Shown piece by piece: positions 4,897-50,247 of a stretch of 64,000 nt of DNA. Source of the DNA: Actinosynnema sp. ALI-1.44. Its GTDB lineage: Bacteria > Actinomycetota > Actinomycetes > Mycobacteriales > Pseudonocardiaceae. The first letter of the stretch is position 1; the number at the start of each line of letters is the position of its first letter. Location: NCBI RefSeq assembly GCF_001984155.1, contig NZ_MTQO01000047.1, positions 186,001-250,000 of the forward strand, given 5' to 3'. The translations under genes were made by a program, and so were the position numbers. Below the pieces are notes generated by a model that had not been told where the DNA came from, did no database searches, and was given only the letters and a program-made list of their open reading frames with translations.

Positions 4897-5000
4897 TACG
4901 ATGGCCCCGCACCGGGATCGGCGGTCCCCCGAAATTGTCGGTCCCCACCCGTAGCGTCTCCTCCGACATAGACCGCTCGAACCAACGAGGTGGACTTCAG

Positions 5001-6044
5001 ATGGCACCAGCAGCACCCGACCGGGGCAAGGCCCTCGAGCTCGCCCTCGCCCAGATCGACAAGCAGTACGGCAAGGGCTCGGTCATGCGCCTCGGGGAAG
5101 AGGTGCGTGCTCCGATCAAGGTCATCCCGACCGGATCCGTCGTCCTGGACGTCGCACTCGGGATCGGTGGCTACCCCCGTGGCCGGATCGTCGAGATCTA
5201 CGGCCCGGAATCCTCCGGTAAGACGACCGTCGCCCTGCACGCCGTGGCCAACGCCCAGAAGGCAGGCGGCATCGCCGCGTTCATCGACGCGGAGCACGCG
5301 CTCGACCCCGAGTACGCCAAGGCGCTCGGTGTCGACACCGACGCACTCCTGGTCTCCCAGCCGGACACCGGTGAGCAGGCGCTGGAGATCGCGGACATGC
5401 TGATCAGGTCCGGTGCGCTGGACATCCTGGTCATCGACTCGGTCGCGGCGCTCGTGCCCCGCGCCGAGATCGAGGGCGAGATGGGTGACAGCCACGTGGG
5501 TCTGCAGGCCCGGCTGATGAGCCAGGCGCTGCGCAAGATCACCGGTGCGCTGAGCAACTCCGGCACCACCGCGATCTTCATCAACCAGCTGCGTGAGAAG
5601 GTCGGCGTGATGTTCGGCTCGCCGGAGACCACCACCGGTGGCAAGGCGCTGAAGTTCTACGCGTCGGTCCGGCTCGACGTGCGCCGCATCGAGACGCTGA
5701 AGGACGGCGGCGAGCCGGTCGGCAACCGCACCCGCGTCAAGGTCGTCAAGAACAAGGTGGCCCCGCCGTTCAAGCAGGCCGAGTTCGACATCCTCTACGG
5801 CATGGGCGTCAGCCGTGAGGGCTCGCTCATCGACATGGGCGTCGACCAGGGCATCCTGCGCAAGTCCGGCGCCTGGTACACCTACGAGGGCGACCAGCTC
5901 GGGCAGGGCAAGGAGAACGCCCGCCGGTTCCTGCGCGAGAACCCGGACGTCGCCAACGACATCGAGAAGCGCATCCAGGACAAGATGGGGATCGGCCCGA
6001 AGCTTGACGCCGAGGAAGCGGCGCCCGCCCCCGTCGACTTCTGA
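5001..6044 (+). CDS. recA: Recombinase RecA
   Basis: A protein of 347 residues starting at ATG 5001 after a GAGGTGG ribosome binding site; upstream in-frame codons are not homologous to RecA. Walker A is GPESSGKT at residues 68-75, and Walker B is [12 protein letters not shown]. The loop L2 region ([23 protein letters not shown]) is intact. RecA forms filaments on single-stranded DNA, drives strand exchange, and triggers LexA self-cleavage. No intein is present. The C-terminal tail is acidic as usual. recX starts on the last base of the stop codon (1-bp overlap), so the two are co-translated. Transcription is likely SOS-controlled through the box at 4881. Confidence 0.98.
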
Positions 6045-7855
6045 TGCGGGAGCCAGAGCCAGCTGGCGATTTGACGTGGCTCGAGGACTGGGTGACAGAC
6101 CAGCGAGCCCAGGCACCGGCGGACCCGAGTATCGACCCTTGGGCCGGGGAAGAACCGACCCCGCCGGCGCCGACACATCCCGCACACCGGCCTTCGGAAC
6201 CAGACGTGGCCCCGAAGGCCGGGCGGGATGCCCAAGAAAGCACCGAGTCGGCTGCCGAACCGACCAGCCGGACTCCGCATACCGGGCACGCATCTCCCCC
6301 CGAAGCCCAGCTCGAGTCCCAGGTGGCCGACGCGGCTGGAGAGCTTCCAGTAGCTGCTGGAAGTGAGCTTCATGGAGAACAGCAGCCTGCTGGTGTGGTT
6401 GCTGGAGGTGCGGTGTCTGTGCCTCGGCGCGGTTCTTCTAGTGGGGTTTGGTCAGGTGGGTGTGATTCTCTGAGGGGTGATGGGGCAAGCGGGTCTTCAA
6501 CGGCTGCTGGCACTGGGTCTCGGGGGGAACAGTGGTCTGGTGGCGTGGTTGCCGGAGGTGCGGTGTCTGTGCCTCAGCGGGCTTCCTCCGGCGAGGTTGG
6601 ATCCGGCGCGGATGATCTTCGGACGGCTGATGCGACCGCAGAGACTTCGGTAGTGGGCACTGAGCCTCGTGGTGAACAGGTTTCCACTGTGGATGTGGTT
6701 GTCGGAGAGGCGTCGCCTGTACTTTCGCGCAGTTCCTCTGGTGAGGTTCGACCAGATGGGTTCGATCCTCAGAGGAGAGATGTGACCGGCGGGTCTTCAA
6801 CGGCTCCCAGCAGTGATTCTCGCGACGGAGATCGAGTTGCCGGTGATACCGGTGTGGTCGGGGAGTGGCGGCCTTCTTCGTCTTCGCGTGTTGCTCAGTT
6901 GGATGCACTGCGGGCTCGGATGGCGGAGGTTTCCGCTGGTCTTCCCGCAGGGCCTCGCGGCGGGGCTCGTGGTGATCATGAGGCTGGCGAGCGGGCTGTT
7001 CGCGGGGAAGGTGTGGTCCCTGCGGGCTCGGAGTCGGTGCGTGGTTCGTCTTCGCCGAGTACGCGGTTGGATGAGCTGCGCGGTCGGATGGCTGAGGTGT
7101 CTGGTGATGCGTCGGGGCGGCGTTCTGCTTTGGCTGGTTCGCGTCGTCAGCGGGGACGTGCTTCCGCAGAGGCAGGTTCAGGGCACGTCGATGATGCGGC
7201 CGTTGATCCGTTTGAGCCGTCGCCATCGCTGTCGTCGGGTGATGGTGGTCGTCGTCGGGGGCAGTCGCGGCGGGGGCGGTGGGCATCTGGGGACGAGGCC
7301 GTTGGGCGAGGGGACGAGCGTCGTCGGGAGCGCAAGACTCAAGGCGCTGGTCCTGAGGGCGATCCTGAGGCTTATGCCAAGGATCTCTGTTTGACCTTGC
7401 TCACCGCTCGGCCTCGTACTCGGGCTGAGTTGTACAAGGCCTTGGTGGGGAAGGATGTTTCGTCTGAGGTTGCTGAACGGGTGCTGGGCAGGCTCGATCA
7501 GGTCGGGCTGATCGATGACAAGGCTTTCGCTGAGATGTGGGTTCGCTCACGCCACACCTATCAGGGGGTGGGGCGTAAGGCGTTGAGTGTCGAGCTTCGT
7601 CGTCGTGGTGTTGACAACGACACTGTTGCCGAGGCTGTTGCCGCTGTCGACGAGGAGGCCGAGGAGGAACGGGCGCGCCTGCTCGTGCGCAAGAAACTGC
7701 CTTCCATGCGGTCCGCCGATCAGCAGACCAAGGTTCGCCGCCTCGTCGGCATGCTTGCCCGCAAGGGTTACAGCCAGGGTTTGGCCTACCGTGTCGTCAA
7801 GGACGAACTGGCCAACGTGGGCGATGAGACCGATCTCCTGGACACCATCGAGTGA
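6044..7855 (+). CDS. recX: RecX regulatory protein with a 430-residue repeat-rich N-terminal extension
   Basis: The frame is 603 residues, against about 150-220 for most RecX proteins. The RecX domain is at the C-terminus (about residues 437-603), with the three-helix repeats starting AYAKDLCLTLLTARPRT. It should bind RecA filaments and limit RecA activity. The first ~430 residues are low-complexity, rich in Gly, Ser, Arg and Glu. They carry three degenerate copies of a ~50-residue unit (DNA spacing 150 and 147 bp, around 6375, 6525 and 6672), and two copies of a short helix with the core LDALRARMAEVS/LDELRGRMAEVS near 6900 and 7070. Codons there use many T third positions, unlike recA. The start overlaps the recA stop by one base. 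A downstream start would also give a working RecX. Confidence 0.88.
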   Translation: MREPEPAGDLTWLEDWVTDQRAQAPADPSIDPWAGEEPTPPAPTHPAHRPSEPDVAPKAGRDAQESTESAAEPTSRTPHTGHASPPEAQLESQVADAAGELPVAAGSELHGEQQPAGVVAGGAVSVPRRGSSSGVWSGGCDSLRGDGASGSSTAAGTGSRGEQWSGGVVAGGAVSVPQRASSGEVGSGADDLRTADATAETSVVGTEPRGEQVSTVDVVVGEASPVLSRSSSGEVRPDGFDPQRRDVTGGSSTAPSSDSRDGDRVAGDTGVVGEWRPSSSSRVAQLDALRARMAEVSAGLPAGPRGGARGDHEAGERAVRGEGVVPAGSESVRGSSSPSTRLDELRGRMAEVSGDASGRRSALAGSRRQRGRASAEAGSGHVDDAAVDPFEPSPSLSSGDGGRRRGQSRRGRWASGDEAVGRGDERRRERKTQGAGPEGDPEAYAKDLCLTLLTARPRTRAELYKALVGKDVSSEVAERVLGRLDQVGLIDDKAFAEMWVRSRHTYQGVGRKALSVELRRRGVDNDTVAEAVAAVDEEAEEERARLLVRKKLPSMRSADQQTKVRRLVGMLARKGYSQGLAYRVVKDELANVGDETDLLDTIE

Positions 7856-49852: not shown

Positions 49853-49883
49853 GGGCCCGGGGGAATTGCCCTCCCCCGAGCCC
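49853..49883. terminator. Strong hairpin between SDR and the tRNA-like RNAs
   Basis: GGGCCCGGGGG and CCCCCGAGCCC pair over about 10 bp around a 9-nt loop. It sits 3 bp after the SDR stop and 37 bp after (minus strand) the second tRNA-like RNA, so it could end both transcripts. Confidence 0.6.
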
Positions 49884-49920
49884 TGAGTCGCCGCCACTTG
49901 GCGCCGCCAGCACGTTTAAA

Positions 49921-50027
49921 GGCACGGATCACGCGTCAACGCCCCGCGTCCTGCGATTGGACCACTGGCCCACGGTGGCGGGCCAGGCTGGAGTTGAACC
50001 AGCAACTCGGGTGCACTCGTCCGTACC
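49921..50027 (-). ncRNA. Permuted tRNA-like (Y RNA-like) RNA, unit 2
   Basis: Read on the minus strand. The T-arm GCTGG-TTCAACT-CCAGC (49987-50003) has a canonical TTCRANY loop. It is followed directly by CTGGCCC (49980-49986), an 8-nt loop, and the exact complement GGGCCAG (49965-49971), i.e. a 7-bp acceptor helix closed by a loop. Then come TG and a D-arm GTCC-AATCGCA-GGAC (49948-49962). CGGG/CCCG pairs next to it replace the anticodon stem. GGTACGGA (50020-50027) pairs with TCCGTGCC (49921-49928) to close the RNA. The D-loop lacks the usual GG. This order is that of a circularly permuted tRNA, as in bacterial YrlA Y RNAs. Expression is not shown by sequence. Confidence 0.7.
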
Positions 50028-50056
50028 TGGTCGATCTGGCGATCGACGGCACCATA

Positions 50057-50202
50057 CTGAGGCTTGAGCGAGAGTTTGATTCTCGTGGCGAGCGTCCGGC
50101 TGCCTCTCCCCGTTGGGCCACCCGCCCGCGGCTGTGGGCGGGGGAGGATTCGAACCTCCACTGTCACCGGAAACCCTGTCAAACTGACGGTTTCAGTCTC
50201 AG
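50057..50202 (-). ncRNA. Permuted tRNA-like (Y RNA-like) RNA, unit 1
   Basis: Read on the minus strand. The T-arm is GGAGG-TTCGAAT-CCTCC (50143-50159). The acceptor strands CCCGCCC (50136-50142) and GGGCGGG (50121-50127) are perfectly complementary around an 8-nt loop. TG (50119-50120) and a D-arm GCC...GGC (50102-50118) with a GGGG-containing loop follow. An anticodon-like stem TCCGG (50167-50171) with CCGGA (50095-50099) joins the arms. Outside it AGTTTGA (50179-50185) pairs with TCAAACT (50073-50079), and CTGAG with CTCAG may close the RNA; TGAGCG/CGCTCA is an alternative outer stem. It begins about 45 bp after the stop of the upstream protein gene and may be processed from that transcript. 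Confidence 0.72.
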
Positions 50203-50247
50203 CTTGCGCTCAGTGCGCGGCGCTGACTCTAGCGGATCACCGGCCGC

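Follow-up and report, generated by a model that had tools for sequence, protein, structure and literature searches.

A conserved non-coding RNA with two tRNA-like domains is linked to DUF7873 genes in bacteria and phages and is probably part of a ribonucleoprotein

The minus strand of the window, the whole 64-kb stretch of DNA that was analysed, contains a conserved non-coding RNA of ∼390 nt adjoining the gene for a DUF7873 protein (Table 1). The two tRNA-mimic units described by the original prediction are part of this longer RNA, which is tied to the adjacent gene; the prediction had overlooked this. The RNA is conserved in its fold, has approximate boundaries that could be placed, and is tightly linked to DUF7873. 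Gene and RNA are nearly always found together in the genomes sampled, a result from sequence comparison that points to an RNA-protein machine not yet described. The locus probably specifies a two-part ribonucleoprotein in which the DUF7873 protein is paired with a non-coding RNA of ∼390 nt dedicated to it.

Table 1. Features of the RNA and the DUF7873 gene in the window.
Feature	Position	Strand	Evidence or remark
DUF7873 (PF25283) gene, 248 aa	50248..50994	-	Pfam E 2.2e-118; RNA directly 3'
Whole conserved non-coding RNA	49853..50244	-	5' end approximate; conservation in 28 aligned bacterial loci
Unit 1 T-arm and acceptor hairpin	50121..50159	-	Direct reading and descriptor; in 118 further loci; covariation
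Unit 1 D-arm	50102..50118	-	A15 = 50113, U48 = 50160
5' strands of unit 2 closing helices	50020..50042 (50042-50036, 50028-50020)	-	Flank conserved AUCGA
Unit 2 T-arm and acceptor hairpin	49965..50003	-	Direct reading, descriptor, covariation
Unit 2 D-arm	49948..49962	-	A15 = 49957, U48 = 50004
3' strands of unit 2 closing helices	49904..49928 (49928-49920, 49910-49904)	-	Flank conserved UUAAACG
3' GC hairpin, terminator-like	49853..49883	-	Conservation boundary in aligned bacterial loci

Direct reading of the sequence and a descriptor (paired T-stem, TTCRA loop, 7-nt acceptor with at most one mismatch, then T and A or G) both revealed the predicted order of T-arm, 7-bp acceptor hairpin and D-arm in the two minus-strand units. 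In unit 1 the T-arm (50159-50143) is followed by CCCGCCC (50142-50136), an 8-nt loop, GGGCGGG (50127-50121), TG and the D-arm (50118-50102), and in unit 2 the T-arm (50003-49987) is followed by CTGGCCC (49986-49980), an 8-nt loop, GGGCCAG (49971-49965), TG and the D-arm (49962-49948). Applied to both strands of the window, the descriptor returned two matches that are precisely these units. ARAGORN called no tRNA and no tmRNA anywhere in the window, in agreement with the claim that no ordinary tRNA can be drawn at the units, and a tmRNA was rejected on the same result. An 88-aa ORF spans both units in the window and in 85 of 118 loci some frame on the plus strand runs through the pair without a stop, although open frames say little since the DNA is GC-rich; coding sequence was rejected based on the length across the units, which taken modulo 3 was distributed 45/38/35 (remainders 1/2/0) among the 118 loci.

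DUF7873 loci were obtained from IMG/VR (one set being the best 80 of 294), from bacteria (the best 80 of at least 563, one genome per species) and from phage and plasmid records; the best-80 lists therefore lean towards closer relatives. The family was found in actinobacteria, Chloroflexi, Deinococcales and Armatimonadota MAGs, a cyanobacterial MAG and phages, with 73 matching phage records; by record name, the phages are those of Gordonia, Arthrobacter, Rhodococcus, Rhizobium, Klebsiella, Serratia, Vibrio and cyanobacteria. Among 86 viral loci, some of them near-duplicates, 77 have a unit no more than 700 nt beyond the 3' end of DUF7873; the same holds for 71 of the best 80 bacterial loci, of which 65 contain two units and the remaining six a single unit by the descriptor. 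Elsewhere, on both strands, the descriptor matched 29 times in 1.65 Mb of the viral loci and once in 1.59 Mb of the bacterial loci, and 24 of the 29 off-site matches overlap ordinary tRNA genes identified by ARAGORN. The recurrence of a unit downstream of the gene bears out the contention that the arrangement is beyond chance.

Covariance models were built from the two units, R1 from unit 2 and a second model, R2; unit 2 of the window, itself in the training set, scored 132.2 bits against R1. As anticipated, searches with these models identified homologous covarying structure in related genomes. RNAs missed by the descriptor were recovered in viral loci L015, L036, L048, L074, L092 and L096 and in bacterial loci L118, L120 and L124, with a weak match in L104. 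Both units were matched in a Klebsiella phage (L028; 48.7 and 40.8 bits), and weak matches of 21.4 and 19.5 bits lie beside the gene in a Vibrio phage (L027). In viral loci L051, L052 and L083 no convincing RNA was found, the weak covariance-model matches lying away from the gene. DUF7873 is present without detectable RNA in L123, L126, L128 and L130 (Herpetosiphon) and L131 (a Chloroflexi MAG), in the case of L123 also when the covariance-model search was run with filters off; in these Chloroflexi the RNA may have disappeared, been relocated or diverged.

Of 345 genomes sampled from the class, 29 contain DUF7873, 28 as a full-length gene and one (G550) as two fragments. At E≤1e-10, R1 matched all 28 genomes with full-length DUF7873 and none of the 317 others, at a distance of 139-428 nt from the gene in every case; R1 was trained on RNAs adjoining DUF7873, partly from the same class, and the search covered whole genomes. 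The fragments in G550 (G550:C27:2942-3232) are accompanied by no RNA match, and gene and RNA may have decayed together. In a phylum sample of 296 genomes, which overlaps the class sample, R1 matches of at least 56.8 bits were present only in the six genomes that contain DUF7873, and weaker matches (to E 0.001, at most 50.7 bits) were in 79 other genomes or were second matches in the six. When weak matches were examined in six further genomes, four proved to be ordinary tRNA gene pairs (L190, L192-L194), and the other two, L189 (G023:C1:2254469-2254769) and L191 (G193:C1:1869358-1869652), consist of paired partial R1 matches ∼240 nt apart with no tRNA gene; these loci, in DUF7873-negative genomes of the class, are perhaps tandem Y-like RNAs of another system. 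Five other weak matches have a TROVE match no more than about 1.4 kb away, as expected of Y RNAs. An exact pattern scan returned viral contigs L195 and L196, which contain neither DUF7873 nor a match to R1 or R2.

In several phages or viral contigs (L024, L025, L030 and L093) the gene and RNA are situated in or beside large tRNA arrays, with 28 tRNAs called by ARAGORN in L025 (10.7 kb) and 22 in L093. Tool and database annotations also touch the RNA itself. In Klebsiella phage vB_KpM_FBKp24 (L028, 6013-6097), a GenBank tRNA-Sup(TTA) at 6018-6097 and an ARAGORN tRNA-Stop lie over the T-arm of unit 2, an annotation that we read as a false call; an ARAGORN tRNA-Ser at 5753-5842 likewise overlaps unit 1 in L106.

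The covariation forecast from the two copies in the window is present in relatives. RNAalifold predicted 47 pairs from 49 sequences, 42 of which show compensatory double changes. Evaluated on a fixed structure, unit 2 with its closing stem had 94.4% of cells paired with double changes in 31 of 33 pairs, and unit 1 had 92.0% of cells paired with double changes in 15 of 19; none of 500 shuffles reached either value for either unit. T8 and pairing of the T-stem, acceptor and D-stem are demanded by the descriptor, which in part predetermines the pairing rates of these stems. A14, pair 15-48, the closing helices and the covariance-model searches are free of this selection, and the unselected closing helices and tertiary marks therefore weigh most. 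The closing helices of unit 2 were 94.9% and 86.7% paired, with double changes in 7 of 7 and 9 of 9 pairs among 43 sequences, and T131, A134 and G137 in the region of their 3' strands are invariant in the 43. In the closing helix of unit 1, 63.4% of cells were paired. Thus, the longer pairing proposed in place of the anticodon arm is upheld by covariation in unit 2 and weakly in unit 1.

Tertiary positions were counted in 119 rows, the 118 loci and the window. Pair 15-48, which we take by name and numbering to be the Levitt pair of the tRNA elbow, is A-U in 114 rows, G-C in 2 and another combination in 3 for unit 1, and A-U in 106 and G-C in 13, with no other combination, for unit 2. A14 is present in all 119 rows for unit 1 and 111 for unit 2. 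The D-loop GG is found in 119 and 101 rows respectively, unit 2 of the window being among the exceptions with C-G in place of the G-G typical of relatives. Since pair 15-48 is conserved in both units, both domains very likely adopt the L-shape of tRNA. An origin as tRNA pseudogenes was rejected, the units being conserved and covarying with retention of the 15-48 pair.

The original prediction had also offered permuted tRNA genes as an identity, which was not supported: no anticodon arm is seen and CCA is not kept, position 75 being C in 62 rows for unit 1 and 40 for unit 2, and position 76 being A in 63 and 45 of the 119. Position 74 is C in 101 and 114 of 119 rows and the acceptor loop of unit 1 starts with ACCA in 39 of 118 loci, features consistent with permuted tRNA precursors, or a split tmRNA-like molecule, in which the acceptor loops are cut to free CCA ends. 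The acceptor loops range from 4 to 76 nt in a search allowing up to 79 nt, and the fact that most span 6-9 nt and some just 4 nt, together with the missing anticodon arm, the variable positions 75 and 76 and the lack of a tmRNA call by ARAGORN in the window, makes such processing most improbable.

The units had been expected to yield two separate RNAs of ∼110-150 nt; instead, they are two domains of a single RNA. Both units were located by the descriptor in 118 fetched loci, of which 65 are bacterial and 53 come from viruses, phages or plasmids. Not counting the first acceptor loop, unit 1 and unit 2 are separated by 134-161 nt in 117 of these loci and by 189 nt in the other. In 28 aligned bacterial loci, conservation begins shortly past the DUF7873 stop codon and ends at a GC hairpin ∼110 nt beyond unit 2. 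The conserved flanks of bacterial loci include a 5' UGCGC/GCGCA hairpin, and the conserved linkers include CUCAGACUCUCGCUCCAG and CUUAAACGUGCCGG; unit 1 in bacteria is also enclosed by conserved GCUGA/UCAGC pairing, which varies too little to put the pairing to the test. The near-constant spacing and the shared conserved flanks are the grounds on which two independent Y RNAs were rejected. All 65 two-unit bacterial loci have, 3' of the units, a GC-rich hairpin with a stem of 8 bp or more, a count made without a shuffled control. Its loop keeps a GG-N-N-A-like motif across genera (GGCUA, GGACA, GGAUA and GGCAA; window 49853-49883, L096 4944-4977), which is more conservation than a mere terminator requires.

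The RNA is usually on the same strand as the gene, with a median of 91 nt between the stop codon and the first T-arm in two-unit loci, and could on that account be a 3' UTR in which the tRNA-like domains control the DUF7873 mRNA in cis. Two tRNA folds and a conserved 3' hairpin seem beyond the needs of a UTR, and two viral loci depart from the arrangement. In L015, the RNA and the DUF7873 gene are on opposite strands; in L096, the RNA is upstream of the gene and finishes in a hairpin (4944-4977) with ACTTTTT after it, by inspection an intrinsic terminator. No second copy of DUF7873 was found in locus L015 or locus L096. Regulation in cis is thus quite unlikely, and since the RNA is on the opposite strand in L015 and upstream with a terminator-like end in L096, it is probably an independent, trans-acting unit.

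Among the matches listed, the closest relatives of the DUF7873 protein are encoded in two Kibdelosporangium genomes and a record titled Rhodococcus rhodnii, with 92% identity each. The gene and RNA of the latter (L103; strain NRRL B-16535, G296) nearly match those of Kibdelosporangium, and the record is 12.4 Mb, seemingly too big for Rhodococcus; it may be mislabelled or contaminated. An AlphaFold2 model based on 46 sequences (mean pLDDT 92.4, pTM 0.77) consists of long helices and a long beta-hairpin. A Foldseek search with the model returned nothing at E≤0.001 in the PDB or BFVD; the sub-threshold PDB matches were to CRISPR Cascade with TM about 0.1, and the best-looking BFVD row, A0A7M1RW91, had a target TM of 0.59 but an E of 0.048 and rmsd of 13. 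A sequence search of the PDB found no solved relative (best E 0.61), scans of three DUF7873 proteins each against PHROGs and NCBIfam were uninformative, PADLOC had no match for three, and the Pfam scan detected no TROVE domain in the protein of the window even at E≤1. The net charge of 28 sequences ranges from -6 to +1, near neutral to acidic, and the lack of a basic excess weighs against simple electrostatic RNA binding. In its charge, sequence and fold searches, the protein gives no sign of RNA binding. The neighbouring genes examined in the window belong to ordinary metabolic families by Pfam, and clustering of neighbourhoods revealed no third conserved protein gene recurring around DUF7873 across most loci, the clusters of large size being reverse-strand or RNA-crossing frames as judged by position.

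In the ribonucleoprotein proposed here, each of the two T-arm/acceptor/D-arm modules would form a tRNA-like elbow. A helix in the place of the anticodon arm clearly underlies unit 2 and probably unit 1; the helix of unit 2 bears the conserved AUCGA/UUAAACG internal loop. We infer that DUF7873 binds the RNA, perhaps at this internal loop. YrlA tethers Rsr to PNPase; if the analogy holds, the RNA would serve as a trans-acting scaffold on which the heads dock tRNA-binding proteins, candidates being a nuclease, modification enzymes or a hostile tRNA nuclease. The system is found in both phages and cells. As a special case of the scaffold, the RNA could be a decoy whose heads bind the tRNA (anticodon) nucleases of host or phage without being cut, with DUF7873 stabilising it. 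The missing anticodon arm and the many phages that carry the RNA, several with large tRNA arrays, would suit a decoy, and YrlA has been suggested as a possible competitive inhibitor of an anticodon nuclease (PMC7790460). The RNA is common in bacterial genomes as well, the neighbours examined in the window are of ordinary metabolic families, PADLOC had no match for the three DUF7873 proteins scanned, and the decoy has no known target; we consider it unlikely.

No Rfam family matched the window, or the RNA in 10 relatives, at its gathering score. The nearest is the bacterial Y RNA YrlA (RF02553), with 27.2 bits for unit 2, which aligns across the full model, and 20.4 for unit 1, against a gathering score of 69; the predicted tRNA-mimic, YrlA-like architecture stands, and membership of YrlA does not. 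The source genome has one TROVE/Rsr match, located on another contig and adjoined by a YrlA-like RNA of 38.9 bits, which indicates that the RNA of the window and the Rsr-linked RNA are separate. TROVE was searched in the genomes of 40 of the 80 bacterial loci and five more, with L031 left out, and was found in 27 of 45 (G161 and G323 being one genome counted twice). Seventeen of the 18 TROVE-negative genomes also had no match to the Rsr of the source genome and the last had a 53-residue piece; two TROVE-positive genomes used as controls were both matched. Among viral records, 7 of 50 matched TROVE and the other 43 may be fragments; none of seven isolate phage genomes matched. Rsr/Ro60 is not required for the DUF7873-linked RNA. 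The units might still be ordinary Y RNAs that bind Rsr with DUF7873 incidental, given the module order of YrlA and the Rsr gene in the source genome; this is highly unlikely in view of scores far under the gathering threshold, the better-scoring RNA that the source Rsr has of its own, and the TROVE-negative genomes and viral records, many of the latter perhaps fragments. Since it neither reaches the gathering threshold nor is linked to Rsr, the RNA is Y-RNA-like by architecture and not a Y RNA by membership.

No publication naming the DUF7873 family was found in a literature search. In the portions seen of the literature on Y RNAs, permuted or tandem tRNA-like RNAs and GOLLD/ROOL, a search outside of which the main Y RNA papers fall, no account of the RNA was recognised. 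There is a fair chance that the RNA and DUF7873 form a system that is new within the literature searched and deserves a class of its own. More tentatively, this may be an undescribed ribonucleoprotein class outside Ro/Y RNA, in which an apparently new-fold protein is paired with a two-headed mimic that seizes or diverts two tRNA-handling proteins at once, in phages and their hosts and perhaps in conflicts over tRNA. If true, a two-headed mimic and one uncharacterised protein would constitute a new kind of tRNA-mimic machine and the orphan DUF7873 family would gain a function. The two-headed mimic ranges from actinobacteria and Chloroflexi to a cyanobacterial MAG and to phages whose hosts differ greatly, and a Y-RNA-like architecture separated from Ro60 makes the purpose of the tRNA-like domain directly testable.

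Mimicry of tRNA by non-coding RNA is known mainly from tmRNA, the 3' ends of viral RNAs and Y RNAs. Two-piece (permuted) tmRNA, in which the 3' tRNA part is ahead of the 5' part, shares the permuted order with the RNA described here, which differs in having a true D-stem and no tmRNA call. GOLLD and ROOL are likewise large structured RNAs of bacteria and phages, and GOLLD has been reported in mycobacterial tRNA arrays; the RNA described here differs in being linked to a protein gene, and Rfam searches at the gathering score detected neither family, whether in the window or in the RNA of 10 relatives. YrlA shares the order of T-arm, closed acceptor hairpin and D-arm and likewise has a basal helix replacing the anticodon arm. 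With regard to the Rsr-binding basal stem of YrlA, what was observed in unit 2 is a covarying two-helix stem with a conserved internal loop. Unlike YrlA, the RNA of the window comprises two mimic domains in ∼390 nt, is linked to DUF7873 rather than rsr, scores below threshold and has its own conserved linkers and 3' hairpin. Phage Y RNAs beside an Rsr homologue have been proposed, with no mention of DUF7873 in the portion of the source available (PMC12282133). The tRNA-like domain of YrlA is reported to be a substrate of DusA and TruB and to bind PNPase while the stem holds Rsr (PMC8394870). The DUF7873 system differs from this Rsr/Ro60-Y RNA-PNPase complex (RYPER) in needing no Rsr, the DUF7873 protein of the window having no TROVE match, and is proposed to share its mode of operation, in which the RNA tethers a dedicated protein and the tRNA-like head docks another.
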